Shown in pieces: positions 32,161 to 51,386 of a DNA stretch of 52,974 bases (the first letter of the stretch is position 1; every line of letters starts with the position of its first letter). The position numbers and the translations under genes were made by a program. Origin of the DNA: a virus; IMG/VR virus record IMGVR_UViG_3300032073_000043, positions 1 through 52,974 of that record. One strand, 5' to 3'. The notes beneath the pieces were generated by a model. It worked only from the letters and a program-made list of their open reading frames with translations. It made no database searches and was not told where the DNA came from.

Positions 32161-34302
32161 CTACTCGTTATTATCTTGAAACGGATTAGTACCTAATTGC
32201 CCAAATTGATTAAAGTTAACATAGTTACCAGTGTTAGTTGTATACGTAGTCGTATACGTAGTTGTTGTATTAAAACCAGTGCTTGTAGCTGTAGACGTAT
32301 TAAAAACTGTTGACGTTGATGTGTTATAAACAGTAACGTGATTTGTATTAGTTGTAGTACTTGTGTTAAAAGTAGTAGTCGTGTTAAACGTAGTTACTGT
32401 AGCTGTAGTAGTGTTGTAAACAGTACTTGTCGATCTAGTTGTTGCTGTATTTGTACTAGTGTTATAAACTGTTGTTGTCGCTCTAGTTGTTGCTGTGTTT
32501 GTAGACGTGTTAAAAGCTGTTATAGTTATTGTTTGCGTTGTTGTAGATGTATTGTAAACAGTTGTATAAACAGTAGTCGTATCTCTTGCTGTACTTTTTA
32601 GAACTGTGTTTCTAGATGTACTAACAGTTGTGTTTCTAGATGTAGTAGTGCTAGTATTATAAGTTGTTGTATAAGTAGTGTTTGTACTAAATACAGTTGA
32701 TGTACTAGTATTAAACACAGTACTAGTTGCTCTACTTGTAGATACAACCGTTGTTGTACTAGTATTATAATGAGTTATTGTTATAGTACTAGTTGATCTA
32801 GTTGTATTTCTATACGTAGCGGCTTGAACATCAGTTAACCTCATTGTTTGTTGAGACGTAGTGTATACTGTATTAGTACTAGTATTAAACGTAGTTGTTG
32901 TGGATTTACTGGTATTAAAAGTTGTAGTCGTACTGTACGTAGTTAAAGTAGACGTATTATAAACTGTAGTAGTTGCTCTAGACGTTGATATTGTAGTTGC
33001 TCTACTAGTTAATGTAGCAGTACTAGTATTAAAAGTAGTACTTGTTGTGTATACCGTAGTTGTAGATCTAGATTCTATTGTAGCTCTACTAGTTGCAAAT
33101 GTAGTTACAGTTGATCTAGTGGTAGACACAGTAGTGGTTCTTTGTTCTGTTGTTACCGTGCTAGTATTAAAAGTGGTTGTAGTAGAGTATGCTGTTGTTG
33201 TAGCTCTTTGCTCTGTTGTTGATCTACTTGTAGCAAAAGTAGTCGTTGTCGAGAATACTGTAGTTGTGCTAGTGTTAAACACAGTTATAGTAGCTGTACT
33301 AGTGTTAAAAGCTGTGTTAGTAGTATATGTCGTAGTGGTAGACCTTGAGGTTGCTGTACTTCTAGTTGTAGTAAATGTTGTTGTAGTTGACTTACTAGTT
33401 ATAGTACTTGTGTTAAATGTTGTGCTAGTAGTGTATACTGTTACTGTACTTCTTTGCTCAATTGTAGCTCTTGATGTAGCAAAGGTAGTTGTAGTTGACT
33501 TAGTAGTTACAGTTGATGTATTGAAAGCCGTATTAGTAGTATATACCGTGGTTGTACTTCTAGATTCAATTGTAACTCTATCCGTAGCGAAAGTAGTAGT
33601 TGTAGCTCTAGACGTTAGCGTCGAAGTATTAAAAGCAGTTGTAGTCGTAAACGTCGTAGTAGTAGACCTACTTTCTATAGTGTTTCTGCTAGTAGCAAAA
33701 GTAGTAGTTGTAGCTCTAGTAGTATTAAATGTTGTTGTTGTTGTATACAGTGTAGTAGTACTAAACGCGGTAATTGTATTACGGCTAGTTGCTATTACTG
33801 TTGCTCTACTCGTTGATGTAGTTCTACTAGTAGCAAAAGTTGTTGTAGTAGCTCTAGATGTGGCAAACGTAGTTGTAGTAGACCTAGTAGTGTTAAATGT
33901 AGTTGTTGTATTAAATACAGTCGTGGTACTAGTATTAAATAATGTAGTTGTACTTTTACTAGTATTAAACGTAGTTAAAGTTGTGTAGGTAGTGGTAGTA
34001 GACCTACTTTCAGTTGTAGCTCTAGACGTATTAAAAGTAGTAGTCGTAGTATACGTAGTCGTAGTAGATCTACTTTCAGTCGTAGCTCTAGACGTATTAA
34101 ACGTCGTAGCTGTAGTGTATGTAGTAGTAGTATTTCTAGACTCAAGTGTGCTTCTACTTGTAGAAAAATAAGAAATATAAGTAGTGTTAAAAGACGTTGT
34201 AGTGTTTCTACTTTCAGCGGTGCTTCTTGACGTACCTCTACTCGTGTTTCTTATAGTAGATTGTGATGTGCTTCTTGATGTGCTTCTTGTAGTATTAGGC
34301 AT
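32161..34302 (-). CDS. Thr/Ser-rich repeat fibre protein B (713 aa)
   Basis: Apart from a short N-terminal leader and the last 25 residues, the protein is built of short units such as FNTSRATTESRS, TTTTYTTTTT, FATSRNTI and YNTSTATV. Thr and Ser make up most residues, with Asn/Arg/Ala at fixed places, aromatic Phe/Tyr about every 8-12 residues, almost no Asp, and no Cys, Trp or Gly. Units of 22 residues repeat at DNA level (66 nt). The C terminus is NYVNFNQFGQLGTNPFQDN. There is no signal peptide. It is probably a long thin tail fibre or beta-solenoid, paralogous to the 871-aa fibre upstream but lacking its S74 end. The repeats may be heavily modified. Confidence 0.7.
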   Translation of the reverse strand: MPNTTRSTSRSTSQSTIRNTSRGTSRSTAESRNTTTSFNTTYISYFSTSRSTLESRNTTTTYTTATTFNTSRATTESRSTTTTYTTTTTFNTSRATTESRSTTTTYTTLTTFNTSKSTTTLFNTSTTTVFNTTTTFNTTRSTTTTFATSRATTTTFATSRTTSTSRATVIATSRNTITAFSTTTLYTTTTTFNTTRATTTTFATSRNTIESRSTTTTFTTTTAFNTSTLTSRATTTTFATDRVTIESRSTTTVYTTNTAFNTSTVTTKSTTTTFATSRATIEQRSTVTVYTTSTTFNTSTITSKSTTTTFTTTRSTATSRSTTTTYTTNTAFNTSTATITVFNTSTTTVFSTTTTFATSRSTTEQRATTTAYSTTTTFNTSTVTTEQRTTTVSTTRSTVTTFATSRATIESRSTTTVYTTSTTFNTSTATLTSRATTISTSRATTTVYNTSTLTTYSTTTTFNTSKSTTTTFNTSTNTVYTTSQQTMRLTDVQAATYRNTTRSTSTITITHYNTSTTTVVSTSRATSTVFNTSTSTVFSTNTTYTTTYNTSTTTSRNTTVSTSRNTVLKSTARDTTTVYTTVYNTSTTTQTITITAFNTSTNTATTRATTTVYNTSTNTATTRSTSTVYNTTTATVTTFNTTTTFNTSTTTNTNHVTVYNTSTSTVFNTSTATSTGFNTTTTYTTTYTTNTGNYVNFNQFGQLGTNPFQDNNE
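34001..34132 (-). repeat. 66-nt tandem duplication in fibre B
   Basis: Blocks starting at 34001 and 34067 are almost the same (GACCTACTTTCAG / GATCTACTTTCAG and onward) with few, mainly synonymous changes. They encode the 22-residue unit [YF]T..TTFNTSRATTESRS. This is one of the clearer recent duplications in the repeat shaft. Confidence 0.7.
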
Positions 34303-34304
34303 AG

Positions 34305-34868
34305 TTAAGTTATTATATCGCCAGATATTTGTATTAGTAATTTACCATCTGTCTTTAAGTTATTAATATAATTATTTCTTAACGCTGTCTTATGATCGTC
34401 AGATACATCGTTTGGTTCTGCAAAAATATCTACCAATATTAAATCATATAGCTTTGTTGTTGAGTAAGTCCACTCGTCATGTGTTATTACATTTATATCA
34501 CTATGCATCCAGTTTACAATAGAAACTATCTCAGAGTCTTGTTCAACAACGTCCACACTTGTTGGTGATTTAGTATTTTTTACATATTCAGGAAAAGAAC
34601 CTAAACCAAGTCCTAATATTAAAACATCACCCCAAACTGCATTATCAAAAATACTGTTATCAAAACCACAACTATTACAATCACCTGCTTTTATTTTAGC
34701 AGTATACAAAGAGTTATAATATCTATGGTAAACATCAGATTTATATTTTAAATGTGACATCACAAATTGTGTTGTACCATCTTCTACAGAGGTTTTAGTT
34801 TCTTTTATTATTTCAAATTTAGTACCATCGTGGGTACTTATTAGGTTTTCGTTTATATATGCACTCAT
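34305..34868 (-). CDS. SAM-dependent methyltransferase, spermidine-synthase-like
   Basis: A 187-aa Rossmann-type protein. Motif I is GDVLILGLGLGS (GLGLG at 86-90), the acidic residue of motif II is in VDVVEQDSEI (Glu109) and motif IV-like is YDLILVDIFAEPND (146-147 VD). This layout matches the spermidine synthase/methyltransferase superfamily. The protein ends soon after GKLLIQISGD, so the last beta strand of the fold appears shortened. The gene lies between the two Thr/Ser-rich fibre genes and overlaps the upstream one by four bases. Methylation of the fibre, or of a small molecule, is inference. Confidence 0.65.
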   Translation of the reverse strand: MSAYINENLISTHDGTKFEIIKETKTSVEDGTTQFVMSHLKYKSDVYHRYYNSLYTAKIKAGDCNSCGFDNSIFDNAVWGDVLILGLGLGSFPEYVKNTKSPTSVDVVEQDSEIVSIVNWMHSDINVITHDEWTYSTTKLYDLILVDIFAEPNDVSDDHKTALRNNYINNLKTDGKLLIQISGDIIT

Positions 34869-37480
34869 GATTTAATTGTTTTAAATTCTACATCTAACAT
34901 ACTATAGTCAACCCACTTACTGTTTCTGTGGTTTAGTACAGCTCCATCAATATGTTCAACTTCATCAGCCATAACACCTTGCCATACACCAGCAAATTTA
35001 TCAGCATATATACCTTTTTTAAATTCAAAGCTATATATATTTATACCTTTATTAGATTTGCCTATTAACTTAATATGTTTTTTCAATTTTCTGTCTGAAG
35101 GAAAACCACCACCACCGCCACATGAGGTAGGAGCTCCCGCAACCTGACCACCACTGATTATTTTATATTTATGTGTTGGACTAAATGCAATAGCATCTTG
35201 AGCTCCATACCATGCTCCAGCCAATGCTGATGTACCAGCAGAGTTTGTATACACATAGCTATTTGCTTGGGGTAATCCACTAGAAACGTTTGTTCCATAA
35301 TATGTAGCTCCCATAAACGCATTACACGCACCATTAAAATTACTTGCAGCTGTTGAGCTAAAAGCCGTAACGCTAGCCGCTGTGTTAAACGTTGTTATAT
35401 ACGTTGTGTTAAATGTTGTTGTATATGTTGTAGCGTAAGTTGTGTTAAACGATGTTGTAGTATTGTAAGCTGTTGTTGTTGACTTGCTAGTTCCTCTAGT
35501 TGTTGATATACCAGTTGTAAACGTAGTTGTAGTGCTATAAGTTGTAGTTGTACTTCTACTTTCAGTTGTGTTTCTACTAGTGTTAAACGTCGTGGTAGTT
35601 GTATAAGTAGTCGTAGTAGATCTGCTCTCTGTTGTTGCTCTACTTGTATTAAATGTAGTTGTTGTCGTATATGTTGTCGTTGTACTCCTAGATTCAGTAG
35701 TGTTTCTTGAAGTAGCAAATGTAGTAGTTGTTGATCTACTAGTTGCTATTGTAGTTACCCTAGATGTTGATGTTGATCTAGATGTAGCAAACGTTGTAGT
35801 TGTTGATCTAGTAGTGTTAAACGTAGTCGTCGTGCTTCTACTAGTGTTAAACGTAGTAGATGTATTAAATACAGTTATAGTAGATGTGTTAAACGCGGTA
35901 GTTGTTGATCTACTTGTTGTTGTGCTTCTACTTTCAGCTGTTGATCTACTTGTAGCAAAAGTAGTTGTTGTAGTTGTACTAGTGTTAAATACTGTGTTTG
36001 TTGTGTATGTTGTAGTTGTAGATCTATTTGTTGTAGTTGTTCTAGACGTAGCAATAGTAGTTGTAAATATAGTAGTTGTTGATTTACTAGTATTAAACAC
36101 TGTGATAGTTGCATAAACTGTATTTGTTGTTCTACTCTCTGTGGTATTTTTTGATGTCGCAAATGTTGTTGTAAAAGCGGTAGTCGTAGTTTTAGTAGTA
36201 TTAAAAACAGTACTAGTGGAATATGCGGTTGTCGTACTTCTAGATTCTGTAGTGTTTCTACTAGTGGCAAATGTAGTTGTGTATACGGTTGTAGTAGTTC
36301 TAGATGTATTAAATACTGTCGTAGTAGCAAACACTGTAGTTGTACTTCGACTTTCAGTAGTATTTCTTGACGTTGCAAAAGTTGTCGTAGTTGATCTACT
36401 AGTTGATATAGTAGTAGCTCTACTTGTTGTAGTTGCTTTACTAGTGTTGAAAGTAGTAGTCGTAGTATAAACAGTTGTAGTAGACCTTTGCTCTATTGTT
36501 GCTCTAGACGTGTTAAAAGTTGTTGTCGTTGAATAAACTGTAGTAGTACTGGTGTTGAATGTTGTTGTTGTACTTTTAGTAGTATTAAAAACAGTAGTAG
36601 TAGAATACGCGGTAGTAGTGTTTCTTGATTCAGTAGTATTTCTGCTCGTTGCAAAAGTTGTTGTAGTACTAAATATAGTTGTTGTAGACGTATTAAATAC
36701 TGTAGTTGTACTTTTACTAGTGCTAACTGTTGTATTTCTACTTTCTAAAGTTGTTTTACTAGTAGCGAAAGTTGTTGTTGTGCTTCTGCTAGTGCTAATA
36801 GTTGTATTTCTATTAGTAGTTGTACTAGTGTTGTATATAGTAGCTGTTGATTTTAACGTATTTCCTAAAAACGTGTTGTATGTAGTTGTGTAAGTAGTAG
36901 TAGTGTTTCTAGCCGTATCTACAGTTGTAACAGTAGATGTATTAAAAGTAGTAGTAGTATTTCTACTAGTGCTAACAACTGTACTTCTTGATGTAGATGT
37001 GGTTTTAACCGTTACGGTAGACGTATTAAACGCTGTGTTAAAAGAAGTTAACGTACTAGTATTAAAAGTTGTAGTCGTGCTAGTATTAAATACAGTTATA
37101 GTAATTGTTGACGTTATTGTCGACGTATTGTAATTTGTAGTATAAACTGTAGTTGTATTTCTACTAGTTGCAATTGTAGTTGATGTTAAAAAAGTAGTAG
37201 TAGTATTTTTACTTGTTGAAACAACTGTTGATGTAGAAAATGTTGTTGTTGTAGATCTATTAGTAGATATAGTAGTGTTTGTACTTCTACTAGTAGCTGT
37301 AGCTCTAGAAGTGCTGTAAGCAGTAGTTGTAGACTTAACTGTTGTTGTACTAGTATTATAAGCTGTTGTTGTACTAGTGTTATACGTAGTAGTCGTACTC
37401 TTACTGGTTCCTGTAGATTTTGTTGTTGATCTACTGGTTGACTTACTGAAAAAATTAATTTTACTCCAGAGAAAGTTCAT
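34865..37480 (-). CDS. Thr/Ser-rich repeat tail fibre with S74 chaperone domain (871 aa)
   Basis: Residues 13-700 are Thr/Ser-dominated short units (RSTTTTFATS, TSRATTESRS, TTTYTTTTTFN) with regular aromatic residues and Arg or Asn spacing. Residues 700-795 form a different small domain (CNAFMGATYYG, VYTNSAGTSALAGAWYG), with a glycine-rich loop. The C terminus is an intramolecular chaperone of the peptidase S74 type: SDRKLKKHIKLIG, with Ser795 and Lys800 in the catalytic S-x4-K spacing, then IYSFEFK, GVMADEVEHIDGAVLNH. The S74 domain directs trimerisation and cleaves itself off in endosialidases and fibres. The protein should therefore be a trimeric tail fibre, very unusual in its shaft. Confidence 0.82.
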   Translation of the reverse strand: MNFLWSKINFFSKSTSRSTTKSTGTSKSTTTTYNTSTTTAYNTSTTTVKSTTTAYSTSRATATSRSTNTTISTNRSTTTTFSTSTVVSTSKNTTTTFLTSTTIATSRNTTTVYTTNYNTSTITSTITITVFNTSTTTTFNTSTLTSFNTAFNTSTVTVKTTSTSRSTVVSTSRNTTTTFNTSTVTTVDTARNTTTTYTTTYNTFLGNTLKSTATIYNTSTTTNRNTTISTSRSTTTTFATSKTTLESRNTTVSTSKSTTTVFNTSTTTIFSTTTTFATSRNTTESRNTTTAYSTTTVFNTTKSTTTTFNTSTTTVYSTTTTFNTSRATIEQRSTTTVYTTTTTFNTSKATTTSRATTISTSRSTTTTFATSRNTTESRSTTTVFATTTVFNTSRTTTTVYTTTFATSRNTTESRSTTTAYSTSTVFNTTKTTTTAFTTTFATSKNTTESRTTNTVYATITVFNTSKSTTTIFTTTIATSRTTTTNRSTTTTYTTNTVFNTSTTTTTTFATSRSTAESRSTTTSRSTTTAFNTSTITVFNTSTTFNTSRSTTTTFNTTRSTTTTFATSRSTSTSRVTTIATSRSTTTTFATSRNTTESRSTTTTYTTTTTFNTSRATTESRSTTTTYTTTTTFNTSRNTTESRSTTTTYSTTTTFTTGISTTRGTSKSTTTAYNTTTSFNTTYATTYTTTFNTTYITTFNTAASVTAFSSTAASNFNGACNAFMGATYYGTNVSSGLPQANSYVYTNSAGTSALAGAWYGAQDAIAFSPTHKYKIISGGQVAGAPTSCGGGGGFPSDRKLKKHIKLIGKSNKGINIYSFEFKKGIYADKFAGVWQGVMADEVEHIDGAVLNHRNSKWVDYSMLDVEFKTIKS

Positions 37481-45068: not shown

Positions 45069-45322
45069 TCTACTAAAACTACATCTTGTATTTTTATAAC
45101 TTGCAATAGTTTATTTTTCCAGTGTATACCGTGTCCAGCGTGTTTATCATAGTATATAATGCTATTGTCATTAATACCCTCGACTAAGTTACCTTTTGTT
45201 ACAACTTTTGCTTTTATATACCTATTGTCACTGTCTGTTTTTTCTGTTAAAATTAAACCAGCAACTTTCTTAGGCTTTTCTTTGATCTTTTCTACTACTA
45301 TGTAATAATTAACTGCTTGCAT
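45065..45322 (-). CDS. groES: GroES co-chaperonin (85 aa)
   Basis: A Cpn10-family protein: MQAVNYYIVVEKIKEKPKKVAGLILTEKTD, with the hydrophobic tripeptide LIL of the mobile loop, then AKVVTKG, DNSIIYYDKHAGHGI and the C-terminal IQDVVLVE. It is short (85 against about 95-97 aa). It follows groEL, with 14 bases of overlap, the reverse order to bacterial groES-groEL operons. With groEL the phage therefore has a complete chaperonin pair of its own. Confidence 0.88.
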   Translation of the reverse strand: MQAVNYYIVVEKIKEKPKKVAGLILTEKTDSDNRYIKAKVVTKGNLVEGINDNSIIYYDKHAGHGIHWKNKLLQVIKIQDVVLVE

Positions 45323-46880
45323 TTGGTATTCTTATATTAGAGATTACACAATCTGCAGAAATTATAGTAGAAACAACACTAACTGCATTCTTTAGTGCTG
45401 TCTTTGTGACTAAGACTGGGTCTATTATGCCACTTTTTATCATATCAACCTCTTTTCCGGTTGTTACATCTATACCATACCCTATTTTTGTAGGAGTTTT
45501 TATTAAAACTATACCAGCATTGTCTAAAATAGTTTTAAAAGGTGCTAAAATAGCAGTTTTTAGTATTTTTTCGCCAGTATTATCTGGTTTTATTGAATTA
45601 GCAGCGTTTAATAGTGCTATTCCACCTCCAGAAACAATACCTTCTTGTAATGCAGCCTTAACTGCATAGATAGCATCTTCAACTCTATCCTTTTTTTCCT
45701 TTAATTCTACTTTAGAATCAGCACCTACGTTAATTATACCAACAGAACCGCTTAACATAGCTAATCTGTCTTGTAATCTTTTCTTAAAATAAGGTTTTTT
45801 CTCTTTTTTAATCTTATTTTTAACATCTTTTATCCTTTCTTCGAGGTCTACCGCTTTTAAACCAGTTGTAAGGACTGTAGTTCTGTTATCTGTGACAGAT
45901 TTTACTACTTCACCCAAACAATCTGGCTGGATCAGATCTAAATCGTCTCCAAGCTCTTCGTTCATAACTTGCGCTCCAGTTAAAAATGCTAAATCTTCTA
46001 TTGTATCTGCTTTACTAGGGCCAAAACCAGGTGGATCTATGATATTAACATTGATATTACCCTTAACTTTGTTCATTAGTAACGCTGATTTGACCTGTTG
46101 GTCAACCTCTGCTATAATAAGTAGAGGTTTTCTTTTCTTTATAACATATTCTAATACACTTTGTATCTTTCTTATGTTAGGTATAGGTGATGAAACTATT
46201 AAAACCGCTGGGTTTTCTAGTTCTGACACCATTTTATCTTTATTTGTAGCAAAGTGAGGTGATGTTAAGCTACTATCGAACTGTACACCCTCTACTATCT
46301 CTGTGTAGGTTTCATCGCTTTCGCTCTCCTCCATCAGCACTACACCGTCCTTACCTACTTTTTTGTAAGCTTCTGCAATAATTTGCCCCAAAGCTTTGTC
46401 ATTGTTGCAGCTAATTGCTGAAACGCTTGTAAGCTGATCGCCAGATACTGCTTTGCTGTGTTCTGAAAGGTATTCCACAACCTTTTTATATCCTGTTTCA
46501 ATGCCATGTTTTATATCTCTTATACTATCGTTAGACTTTACTTGTGAGTTGACCTCTTTTAATAGTGATTCAGCAAGGACGATAGCCGTAGTGGTACCGT
46601 CACCTGCTTCCTTCACTGTGTTTTTCGATGCTTCTTTAATAAGTGTTGCACCTATATTTTCTACAGGATCCATTAGTACTACTGAATCAGCTACAGTTAC
46701 ACCATCTTTAGTTATAACTGGTCTGCCTAATCCATCTTCGTATACTACGCACTTACCTGAGGCACCTAGAGTAGATTTAACAGCTTTCGCTAGTTTATCT
46801 ACACCATTCATAATTTTTGATTTAGCTTCATCACCAAAGTAAAGATCTTTGACAATTTCGCTAGGTTGATTAAATTCCAT
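45309..46880 (-). CDS. groEL: GroEL-like chaperonin (523 aa)
   Basis: The family is plain: GVDKLAKAVKSTLGASGKCVVYEDG, ITKDGVTVADSVVLMDPVENIGATLIKEAS, GDGTTTA (Asp94), and RVEDAIYAVKAALQEGIVSGGGIALL with the catalytic Asp of the EDA motif. ATPase and fold residues are retained. The length is about 25 residues less than E. coli GroEL, and the C-terminal Gly-Gly-Met tail is missing (ends IRIPNASS). It is early in the leftward block, so it is likely made before or with virion proteins and helps fold large capsid, tail and fibre proteins. Confidence 0.95.
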   Translation of the reverse strand: MEFNQPSEIVKDLYFGDEAKSKIMNGVDKLAKAVKSTLGASGKCVVYEDGLGRPVITKDGVTVADSVVLMDPVENIGATLIKEASKNTVKEAGDGTTTAIVLAESLLKEVNSQVKSNDSIRDIKHGIETGYKKVVEYLSEHSKAVSGDQLTSVSAISCNNDKALGQIIAEAYKKVGKDGVVLMEESESDETYTEIVEGVQFDSSLTSPHFATNKDKMVSELENPAVLIVSSPIPNIRKIQSVLEYVIKKRKPLLIIAEVDQQVKSALLMNKVKGNINVNIIDPPGFGPSKADTIEDLAFLTGAQVMNEELGDDLDLIQPDCLGEVVKSVTDNRTTVLTTGLKAVDLEERIKDVKNKIKKEKKPYFKKRLQDRLAMLSGSVGIINVGADSKVELKEKKDRVEDAIYAVKAALQEGIVSGGGIALLNAANSIKPDNTGEKILKTAILAPFKTILDNAGIVLIKTPTKIGYGIDVTTGKEVDMIKSGIIDPVLVTKTALKNAVSVVSTIISADCVISNIRIPNASS

Positions 46881-48200: not shown

Positions 48201-48346
48201 CTTTAACTTCACTGTGAGTTCCACTTGTTTCTAACAGTATAAATTGCGAACAAGTAAAGACATAATGGTTAACGTGAGTTCGATTCTCACCATGTCTACT
48301 AACTAAGGTAACAGAGTGTTATCAGTAACTAATTAAATATAATAAT
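48201..48346 (+). ncRNA. Structured non-coding stretch with tRNA-like minihelix
   Basis: No ORF is found. A 7-bp stem ACTTGTT (48223-48229)/AACAAGT (48249-48255) comes first. Three bases later a minihelix begins: AGACAT (48258-48263) pairs with ATGTCT (48292-48297), enclosing GTGAG-TTCGATT-CTCAC, which is a complete T-arm with TTCGATT loop. The linker between acceptor-like and T-arm-like stems is only 10 bases, so D and anticodon arms are missing. It reads as a tRNA acceptor/T-arm half rather than a tRNA. Confidence 0.5.
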
Positions 48347-50111: not shown

Positions 50112-50321
50112 ATGAGTAAAACTAAAGAATTTGATATGTTAGCTGATAAAGCTACACATGAAGCAGTAGAAGAAATATACAGAATATGCGAGTGGACATT
50201 AACCGGTAGCGATGCTAAGTCATTACTAAGCTCTACACCAGATATAAACGAAGCTCATAGTTACTTGATGAAGCTCGTTATCGGTAAACTCGCTAATAAA
50301 TACTTAAATATATATGAGTGA
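50112..50321 (+). CDS. Small acidic helical protein (69 aa)
   Basis: MSKTKEFDMLADKATHEAVEEIYRICEWTLTGSDAKSLLSSTPDINEAHSYLMKLVIGKLANKYLNIYE, a helical protein with no known motif. It starts 13 bases after the zinc-finger gene and overlaps the next gene by 8 bases. Confidence 0.6.
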   Translation: MSKTKEFDMLADKATHEAVEEIYRICEWTLTGSDAKSLLSSTPDINEAHSYLMKLVIGKLANKYLNIYE

Positions 50322-50490
50322 TTCAGTAAAAAAATGGTTTGAGATGCAAGAAGAAAAAGAGCACAAAGACGTGCTATACACACATGCGCCAAACAGAAAA
50401 GCATACAGAATACTAATAGATTATGATATAAAAGATATTAGAGAAGCTGTAAAGCTATATGATAAAACAAGAAACCCGCTAGACGAGTAA
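50314..50490 (+). CDS. Small charged protein (58 aa)
   Basis: ATG at 50314 overlaps the stop of the previous gene. Reads MSDSVKKWFEMQEEKEHKDVLYTHAPNRKAYRILIDYDIKDIREAVKLYDKTRNPLDE and stops at 50490. Unknown function. It is followed by more than 600 bases with no gene. Confidence 0.55.
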   Translation: MSDSVKKWFEMQEEKEHKDVLYTHAPNRKAYRILIDYDIKDIREAVKLYDKTRNPLDE

Positions 50491-50743
50491 CTTAATTAGG
50501 TATGATTAAAGGCGTAATTCCTTAGCGGGATGTGAGAAACGGCTCGATGATTACACATAAGTGAATAGCTAGCAATCGAGGTGGCGGCATACAGGTCACG
50601 TTAGTTGAAGGGTAAGAACAAACGGTTGGAACGGTTGAAAGAGTACCGGATGGCTCCGTGAAGTTTATAACTTCAACAAAACAGAAAGTGTGGATAAATG
50701 ACAATACTAGTTAACTACCTGTCCACAACTGGTGCCTCGAAAT
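50491..50743 (+). ncRNA. Gene-free, GC-richer stretch with hairpins (left part of RNA array)
   Basis: No ORF with a good start is found on either strand. Hairpins include CTCGAT (50543-50548)/ATCGAG (50575-50580), CGGA-TGGC-TCCG, GAAGTT-TAT-AACTTC and TGTGGA (50689-50694)/TCCACA (50722-50727), the last enclosing the palindrome TAGTTAACTA. The higher GC against AT-rich neighbours and the many complementary segments suggest a structured transcript. No known RNA family is recognised. Confidence 0.5.
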
Positions 50744-50829
50744 GGGAGTGATAAGGTAAGTGAGACAGTATCTTCGCCGACTATGGCAAGACAGTATCTC
50801 AAACGGCGGTTCGACTCCGCCCACTTCCA
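50744..50829 (+). ncRNA. tRNA-like unit 1 (acceptor stem and T-arm, non-canonical core)
   Basis: GGGAGTG (50744-50750) pairs with CACTTCC (50822-50828) as a 7-bp acceptor with one G-U pair, and GGCGG-TTCGACT-CCGCC is a perfect T-arm. The 54 bases between do not form a D or anticodon arm. They hold an 11-base direct repeat AGACAGTATCT (50763 and 50789) and a hairpin CTT-GCC/GGC-AAG. At 86 nt with its single-base 3' discriminator it has a class II tRNA length, but I could not place an anticodon. Confidence 0.55.
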
Positions 50830-50834
50830 CTAAC

Positions 50835-50922
50835 AGAGAGATGGCAGATATGCAGAGATATACTTGTCGACAAAACAACGGCGGATTTACGTAAGCGAAG
50901 TACTTCGTGGGCACATCTCTCT
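50835..50922 (+). ncRNA. Structured RNA unit 2 (9-bp closing stem)
   Basis: AGAGAGATG (50835-50843) pairs fully with CATCTCTCT (50914-50922). Inside are palindromes TTGTCGACAA and CGAAGTACTTCG. No TTCGA-type T-loop is present, so it is not a tRNA. It is 88 nt and separated from unit 1 by only 5 bases. Confidence 0.5.
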
Positions 50923-50930
50923 TAATATAA

Positions 50931-51009
50931 TACCGGCTTAACAGTAAATCGACGTCTCGGCTTCCTTGAGGTATCAGTTGTACAAAGCCAGTTGTAGTGA
51001 CAGCCGGTA
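50931..51009 (+). ncRNA. Structured RNA unit 3 (8-bp closing stem)
   Basis: TACCGGCT (50931-50938) pairs exactly with AGCCGGTA (51002-51009). Inside GGCTT and AAGCC form a second stem. It is 79 nt and ends 7 bases before the tRNA-Met. The spacing between consecutive units is 5, 8 and 7 bases, as in a processed array. Confidence 0.5.
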
Positions 51010-51016
51010 ACTTATT

Positions 51017-51089
51017 TGCGGTATAGAGCAGTGGTCAGCTCGCATGGCTCATAACCATGAGGTCGTTGGTTCGAATCCTTCTGCCGCAA
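51017..51089 (+). tRNA. tRNA-Met (anticodon CAT)
   Basis: Acceptor TGCGGTA/TGCCGCA (7 bp, one G-U), D-arm GAGC...GCTC, anticodon arm CATGG-CTCATAA-CCATG with CAT at 51050-51052, and T-loop TTCGAAT. The T-stem GTTGG/CCTTC has two mismatches, which is unusual. No CCA is encoded. The C-A-T anticodon could also be an elongator Met, initiator, or Ile after modification. It ends the RNA array and is followed by motif copy 5. Confidence 0.75.
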
Positions 51090-51095
51090 CAAAAC

Positions 51096-51119
51096 AAATA
51101 CGAATGCTAAACGATTATA
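51096..51119 (+). promoter_or_regulatory. AAATACGA-N8-CGATWATA motif, copy 5
   Basis: AAATACGA-ATGCTAAA-CGATTATA, 6 bases after the tRNA and 27 bases before the ATG at 51147. It lies wholly in non-coding DNA, so the motif does not depend on the coding overlap seen at copies 3, 4 and 6. Confidence 0.75.
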
Positions 51120-51146
51120 TAAATGTAATTAAAAATAAATAAAACT

Positions 51147-51386
51147 ATGACAAAAATTAAAACCGTCTACGACAAACTATTGCCCGACGTTAAAACAAGT
51201 TTAAAAGCTAGTGCTAGAAAATACGATAGCGCTAAAAGACTAAAGTATACGCTTATGTCAAAAATGATGTGGTCGGAACTAAATGTCTATGAAGTTAGAG
51301 ATATATTAACCTACGGTGACTTAAACAGTTGGGAACTAGATTGCTACAGCTTTATGTACGGTGAAAAAATAATTGATAAATCATGA
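51147..51386 (+). CDS. Small basic hypothetical protein (79 aa)
   Basis: MTKIKTVYDKLLPDVKTSLKASARKYDSAKRLKYTLMSKMMWSELNVYEVRDILTYGDLNSWELDCYSFMYGEKIIDKS, with a basic N-terminal half and a more acidic, aromatic C-terminal half. No motif is recognised. Its stop overlaps the next start (ATGA at 51383). Confidence 0.6.
   Translation: MTKIKTVYDKLLPDVKTSLKASARKYDSAKRLKYTLMSKMMWSELNVYEVRDILTYGDLNSWELDCYSFMYGEKIIDKS

Follow-up and report, generated by a model that had tools for sequence, protein, structure and literature searches.

A phage-encoded tmRNA with little beyond its tRNA-like domain (TLD) and no tag reading frame has been reported from mycobacteriophage DS6A (PMC4131195, PMC11915505). The portion of PMC4131195 drawn on here, citing Mao et al. 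2009, states that a similar TLD-only molecule strongly inhibits tmRNA whether or not it can be charged, perhaps by titrating SmpB. The corresponding portion of a 2025 tmRNA census (PMC11915505) gives DS6A, mitochondrial tmRNAs and two plastid cases as tag-less and adds that two bacterial groups may lack a tag frame. DS6A was the only TLD-only phage tmRNA that we found in the open-licence literature, where absence is no proof, and these portions of PMC4131195 and PMC11915505 contain no mention of a family of mini-tmRNAs with modular inserts. The mitochondrial tmRNA of jakobids and oomycetes (RF02544) also has lost the message-like part and kept the tRNA-like domain. Other structured phage RNAs of unassigned function lie beside tRNA genes: GOLLD and ROOL are large, often occur near tRNAs, and in one marine case GOLLD adjoins a Met-tRNA (PMC12286853). 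Organellar t-elements and tRNA punctuation place tRNA-like elements between genes, possibly for RNA cutting.

The locus described here resembles each of these systems and differs from all of them. It lies in a 52,974-nt stretch of viral DNA (the window; the entire IMG/VR record IMGVR_UViG_3300032073_000043). DS6A, as described in the portions cited, is a single case from an actinobacterial phage, whereas the family found here is large, its inserts can be exchanged and nested, and an array of further modules surrounds it. The RF02544 tmRNA is organellar, and what our sources hold on it does not describe exchangeable modules. In contrast to GOLLD and ROOL, with which there is no sequence match, the modules here are small and separable and change their order. 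Unlike organellar t-elements, the tRNA-like unit bears an aminoacylation signal, and cutting here is putative. A message-less tmRNA is already known; what appears to be new is its modular, widespread form, along with a pool of modules for which no relatives were found in Rfam.

A message-less tmRNA domain in an RNA array

Four units follow one another on the + strand: unit 1 (50744-50829, 86 nt), unit 2 (50835-50922, 88 nt), unit 3 (50931-51009, 79 nt) and a tRNA-Met with anticodon CAU (51017-51089), with spacers of 5, 8 and 7 nt. This layout, proposed in an earlier sequence-only reading of the window, was reproduced exactly. That reading also placed the start of the array at 50744; the structured stretch instead opens near 50482, with four modules designated A, T, C and D. 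In bracket notation, the order in the window is A(T) C(hairpin, D) mini-tmRNA(insert) U2 U3 tRNA-Met. The structure and modularity of 50482-51089 as an array of RNAs are well supported by the sequence comparisons below; its function we infer.

ARAGORN and Rfam at its gathering threshold called only the tRNA-Met, an ordinary tRNA (RF00005, 62.9 bits), among the four units. Neither unit 1 nor units 2 and 3 has the anticodon arm with a 7-nt loop and the D-arm of RF00005 members, and ordinary tRNAs were rejected for all three by both programs. A protein-coding reading also appears unlikely, as module lengths and order vary freely among relatives. A promoter and terminator scan of 50300-51300 found none on the + strand, using an E. 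coli-type consensus that may not suit this host.

At a relaxed threshold, Rfam matched unit 1 to tmRNA. RF00023 aligned to 50744-50832 with 35.7 bits (E = 1.3e-12; gathering cut-off, 47) and outscored tRNA within the clan; the alignment runs from model position 1 to 374, with ~300 positions deleted. The predicted fold (z = -3.0) comprises an acceptor, an insert hairpin and a T-arm (50805-50821). The acceptor (50744-50750/50822-50828, GGGAGUG/CACUUCC) holds G3.U70 and is followed by A73 (50829), which together form the signal of alanine identity on which tmRNA also relies. Next to the acceptor lies the D segment ATAAGGTAAG (50751-50760), without the UUGAC part that in tmRNA may matter for SmpB binding. 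The full T-arm and the missing anticodon, both pointed out in the sequence-only reading, were borne out by sequence and fold, and neither an anticodon arm nor a D stem is present in either. An exchangeable insert (GAGACAGTATCT-hairpin-AGACAGTATCTC, 50761-50801) takes up the position that belongs to the anticodon arm in a tRNA and to the message domain in a tmRNA.

Unit 1 therefore shares with RF00023 the acceptor with G3.U70, A73, a D-loop-like GG segment and the T-arm, but lacks ~300 nt, including the tag frame and all pseudoknots. Because it has neither of the latter and holds only a 41-nt hairpin insert, we term it a message-less derivative (mini-tmRNA) rather than a tmRNA proper. Its architecture is that of the TLD-only type, in comparison with the published description of DS6A and not with its sequence. 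Judged by sequence and predicted fold, unit 1 is a tmRNA-type tRNA-like domain from which the message and pseudoknot part is gone and in which an exchangeable RNA module stands in their place. A full or permuted tmRNA with its message part upstream was rejected, as 50482-50743 shows no sign of a message domain and unit 1 is self-closed; an attachment-site remnant was rejected because both acceptor halves are retained.

The mini-tmRNA class and its G3.U70 pair

IMG/VR was searched with a pattern for the 3' half of the unit (GTTCGANTCNNNCCACNTCCACTAA, with U70 imposed), which matched at least 120 stretches. Among the matches listed, a few were ordinary tRNAs or complete tmRNAs that include a tag frame, and most were units of 68 to 177 nt built on the plan of unit 1. 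Three cousins of ~77 to 80 nt have a tmRNA-like D segment (e.g., GGUUUUGACG) and score 66.1, 65.0 and 53.1 bits with RF00023, above the gathering score of 47. Intermediate D segments (GAUAAGGUAUUGACCG in locus L094 and GACUUGGUAUUGACGU in L014; the tmRNA-like form is GGUAUUGAC) bridge these cousins to the GAUAAGGUAAG (GGUAAG) of the window. Like nearly all members of its class, unit 1 is rejected by ARAGORN.

A blastn search of cultured phages returned only T-arm, tRNA-Met or short chance pieces, and an RF00023 search of whole cultured relatives returned no mini-tmRNA. GTDB contigs gave five matches, apparently phage contigs inside MAGs; in one Bacteroidetes MAG carrying such a contig, the host tmRNA also has G3.U70. 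The search of cultured relatives did yield a full tmRNA in Cellulophaga phage phi38:1 (L185; NC_021796.1, 26803-27164, - strand; RF00023, 87.6 bits). It is absent from the annotation of that record, and its predicted tag, AQIEANMEAVNAILNLEVAVGV, is unusual; tags related to it occur in the phage contigs L058, L064 and L129. Another phage contig (L044, 228-1135) carries a tRNA run with a permuted tmRNA (RF04321, 56.8 bits).

The wobble pair is nearly fixed in the class. Pair 3-70 was G.U in 39 of 39 distinct cores among the matches listed, in a tabulation for which the pattern imposed U70, a later scan imposed pairing and units starting with GGG were taken. In the same cores, again among the matches listed, pair 4-69 took all four Watson-Crick types (CG, 24; GC, 11; AU, 3; UA, 1), as did pair 50-64. 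An acceptor scan that demanded only GG and pairing, and would admit A3-U70, found GGG in nearly all 5' acceptors among the matches listed. The C70 version of the pattern had two matches in IMG/VR, both tRNA-Tyr genes, compared with the at least 120 stretches obtained with U70. In 37 loci fetched via neighbouring proteins, 15 of 16 units of the class had G3.U70, the other being A3-U70 (L031); with a unit in L171, this makes two A3-U70 exceptions. A descriptor of a 7-bp acceptor, GG and a T-arm found 20 distinct units in these 37 loci, compared with 0.12 on average when the loop motifs were permuted.

A natural control for G3.U70 is provided by a micro tRNA-like element that the sequence-only reading had missed (48258-48298, + strand, 41 nt). 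It consists of a 6-bp acceptor, AAUGGUU and a T-arm, without anticodon or insert, and ends in A73 followed by CUAA. Its 18 distinct relatives (~40 to 41 nt) were found with full pairing required, whereas permuted loop motifs found none. They show 42 two-sided changes over 11 pairs, 9 of which are so changed, and the covariation score was 0.645, compared with 0.226 ± 0.029 after shuffling. These elements share the T-arm and GG with the mini-tmRNAs, but their third acceptor pair is variable (A-U, U-A and one G-U), in contrast to the near-fixed G3.U70.

Directly 5' of the micro element is a conserved hairpin, ACTTGTTTCTA...GCGAACAAGT (the two span 48223-48298 of the window), and the duo recurs in L033, L062, L066 and L105. 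A second anticodon-free tRNA-like class has the acceptor AACUAG...CUAGUU and a covarying hairpin, UACYGACGRGUA, before its T-arm; it is carried by L014 (~2850-2940), L018, L023, L031, L040, L080, L117 and L154. L021 (3922-4001) holds a tRNA-like unit without an anticodon that has G-1 and C73, the histidine identity pair.

Exchangeable and nested modules

Units 2 and 3 (both + strand) lack a T-loop, in agreement with the sequence-only reading. Unit 2 (fold z = -2.3) has a 9-bp closing helix, AGAGAGATG/CATCTCTCT, and an inner hairpin, GCGAAGTACTTCGT. It has eight to ten distinct copies in relatives and is more conserved than unit 3; in its closing helix, AGAGAGAT/ATCTCTCT gives way to AGAGGGGT/ACCTCTCT, and its inner hairpin has a variable tip. 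In L014 and L015, unit 2 lies ahead of tRNA-Met and lacks a unit 1 immediately 5' of it. Unit 3 is closed by an 8-bp helix, TACCGGCT/AGCCGGTA, and its folding energy alone is not significant (z = -0.95). Its closing helix covaries: over positions 2 to 7 of 12 distinct sequences, that of the window included, 71 of 72 pairs are kept and each position shows two to four types of pair, compared with a mean of 45 and a maximum of 62 when partners were swapped (2000 trials). The inner helix, CGAC/GTTG in the window, reads CGAC/GTYG, CGCG/CGCG or CGAG/CTCG in relatives, and the unit 3 core is the mini-tmRNA insert in L143 and L146. By these comparisons, each of units 2 and 3 is a structured module in its own right, with helices that covary.

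The upstream modules, also on the + strand, are nested in the window. Module A (GACGAGTARCTTAATTAGGT...ACACATAAGTGAATAGCTAGC, 50482-50573), whose 5' end overlaps the stop codon of the ORF at 50314-50490, has both halves conserved in ~65 fetched loci (pattern counts, not deduplicated), where it encloses differing inserts (T, M1, B and J). The insert in the window, module T (GATTAAAGGCG...CGGCTCGATG, 50504-50549), recurs with varied inner loops and flanks in L031, L083, L092, L097, L123, L128, L179 and others. Module C (CGAGG..GGCGGCATACAGGTCA ... ACTGGTGCCTCG, 50577-50739; ~43 fetched loci, not deduplicated) encloses a 74-nt hairpin unit (50604-50677, z = -2.7), replaced or absent in relatives, and module D (GTGTGGATAAATGACAATACTAGTTAACTACCTGTCCAC, 50688-50726), in which the core is conserved and the flanking pairs change (GTGGA/TCCAC; GCGGA/TCCGC). 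No module of the array matched GOLLD, ROOL or another Rfam family at gathering or relaxed E-values, the tmRNA match of unit 1 aside.

Many unrelated inserts occupy the anticodon-arm place of the mini-tmRNA class. The two ends of an insert pair with each other over a mean run of 5.9, compared with 4.2 ± 0.13 when ends were taken from other phages (200 shuffles). The insert of the window (GAGACAGUAUCU...AGACAGUAUCUC) also is present in L104 and L145, beneath a different acceptor (GGGCGTG), and many inserts are found outside mini-tmRNAs as well. Module B (GAAAUAGGA...CACACUAAC), for example, is the mini-tmRNA insert in L008, L017, L022 and L083, lies inside module A in L135 and stands alone, enclosing module M1, in L026. 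Orders in relatives include A(M1) C mini-tmRNA U2 U3; C mini-tmRNA(H) U2 U3; C mini-tmRNA(B) U2 U3; A(B(M1)) C mini-tmRNA; and mini-tmRNA(S(M1)), among others. The patterns behind these orders were made by hand, and overlapping loci of one contig were partly retained, so that the module counts are approximate; direct reading of the sequences gave several of the quoted orders as well.

In many related phage contigs, then, modules recur standing alone, as mini-tmRNA inserts or nested in one another. As far as sequence can tell, phages recombine and nest modules from a shared pool, to which units 2 and 3 belong, as do the upstream units. The sequence-only reading had allowed that the units might be degenerated tRNAs. 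This does not hold, in that unit 1 fits tmRNA better than tRNA, whereas neither unit 2 nor unit 3 shows signs of tRNA ancestry, both being mobile modules; its view that units 1 to 3 are genuine structured RNAs and not ordinary tRNAs, agrees with the ARAGORN and Rfam results and with the covariation present in related phages. A broader reading, which we offer tentatively and consider less likely than not, is a combinatorial system in which small structured RNA modules slot into the helices of one another or into a tRNA-like scaffold, shuffling into new composite decoy RNAs as an RNA counterpart of a modular effector arsenal. Besides the message-less tmRNAs, two or more further tRNA-like classes without an anticodon would serve as such scaffolds.

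Possible roles of the array

The explanation of the whole array that we favor, and consider evenly poised between right and wrong, is that unit 1 acts on trans-translation as an alanine-chargeable decoy or scaffold. This suggestion derives from the TLD-only tmRNA of DS6A and from the inhibition exerted by a similar RNA. The array would be cotranscribed with the surrounding + strand genes, and RNase P and a 3' tRNase would mature unit 1 and tRNA-Met, freeing the RNA with units 2 and 3 that lies between them. The layout, in which T-arm elements flank units 2 and 3, makes it plausible that tRNA-processing enzymes would cut in this way. Host enzymes would add CCA, and AlaRS would charge unit 1 via G3.U70. 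In its charged form the unit could draw SmpB, EF-Tu and stalled ribosomes away from the tmRNA of the host, so that trans-translation would be damped or redirected during infection; the inserted modules might tune the decoy or ride along as stabilised cargo. Against the decoy are the score of unit 1 in the window, which falls under the Rfam gathering score, its D segment without UUGAC and the two A3-U70 members of the class. In addition, a pure decoy would need no G3.U70, since inhibition was reported irrespective of charging (Mao et al., as cited in the portion of PMC4131195 used here), and units 2 and 3 and modules A, C and D show no connection with trans-translation.

The main rivals are processing punctuation and a cargo scaffold. 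If unit 1 and the micro element at 48258 served only as cut signals for RNase P and 3' tRNase, freeing the polycistronic RNA and the modules between, as in organellar t-elements and tRNA punctuation, then the close spacing of the units and the position of units 2 and 3 between two T-arm elements would be accounted for. The micro element fits this notion well: it retains only what tRNA processing needs (acceptor, T-arm and GG), and its acceptor drifts freely with full covariation. Cutting alone, however, needs no destabilising G3.U70 wobble, and this is what 39 of 39 distinct cores among the matches listed have while neighbouring pairs vary; nor does punctuation alone give a reason for exchangeable inserts. 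The near-fixed wobble thus speaks against punctuation by itself, which we regard as possible but rather unlikely.

The other main rival is a natural tRNA scaffold. Unit 1 would stabilise and display the inserted module, the modules would be functional decoys binding proteins or nucleic acids (for example, against host defence) and the array would be a decoy cassette. That the same modules stand alone, sit in mini-tmRNAs and nest in others is consistent with this idea, as are an insert turnover far faster than that of the tRNA-like core and module cores that look like conserved internal-loop motifs between sequence-free helices. A scaffold alone leaves the near-invariant G3.U70 unexplained, and no module matches a known Rfam family; we judge it, too, a doubtful candidate for the full explanation.

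Far less probable is a single large ornate RNA, formed by the modules and tRNA-Met in the manner of GOLLD or ROOL and seen here with a variable periphery. The resemblance lies in those RNAs being large, phage-encoded and often near tRNAs, the marine GOLLD beside a Met-tRNA included (PMC12286853), but neither family is matched in Rfam, and a single fold would not tolerate modules that occur alone and differ in order and presence among phages. Functionless decay, as of tRNAs or of attachment-site remnants of tmRNA-integrating phages, would suit the rejection of unit 1 and nearly all its class by ARAGORN, but is scarcely credible given that the acceptor, the T-stem, the base of the insert and the module helices all show compensatory changes, that both acceptor halves are retained and that the class is spread across many phage contigs.

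What was a single curiosity, the TLD-only tmRNA of DS6A, becomes a widespread and evolutionarily active class, which suggests that phages widely target or reuse trans-translation. The class opens to direct testing whether a message-less tRNA-like domain is charged, enters ribosomes and blocks rescue. No fewer than a dozen RNA modules without prior description make up the surrounding pool. They nest in one another and trade places at the ends of helices, a form of RNA evolution of which we found no description in the open-licence literature, and covariation in the modules is sufficient for structure work.

The terminase encoded in the window has 64% identity to that of an uncultured podovirus and 32 to 45% identity to those of Flavobacterium, Cellulophaga and Tenacibaculum phages. 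On these similarities the host probably belongs to the Flavobacteriia, and the related array-bearing phages probably infect this class likewise. A Pfam search of ten window proteins, nine of them near the array, gave zero matches. Two long proteins with NTST/RST-type low-complexity repeats are encoded beside the structural genes (32161-34302 and 34865-37480, - strand), and the C terminus of the second looks, by eye, like an endosialidase chaperone. The translation of 45309-46880 (- strand), also judged by eye, resembles a GroEL-like chaperonin, and the annotations of three related phages, elemo, phi38:1 and MW202828, likewise list GroEL.
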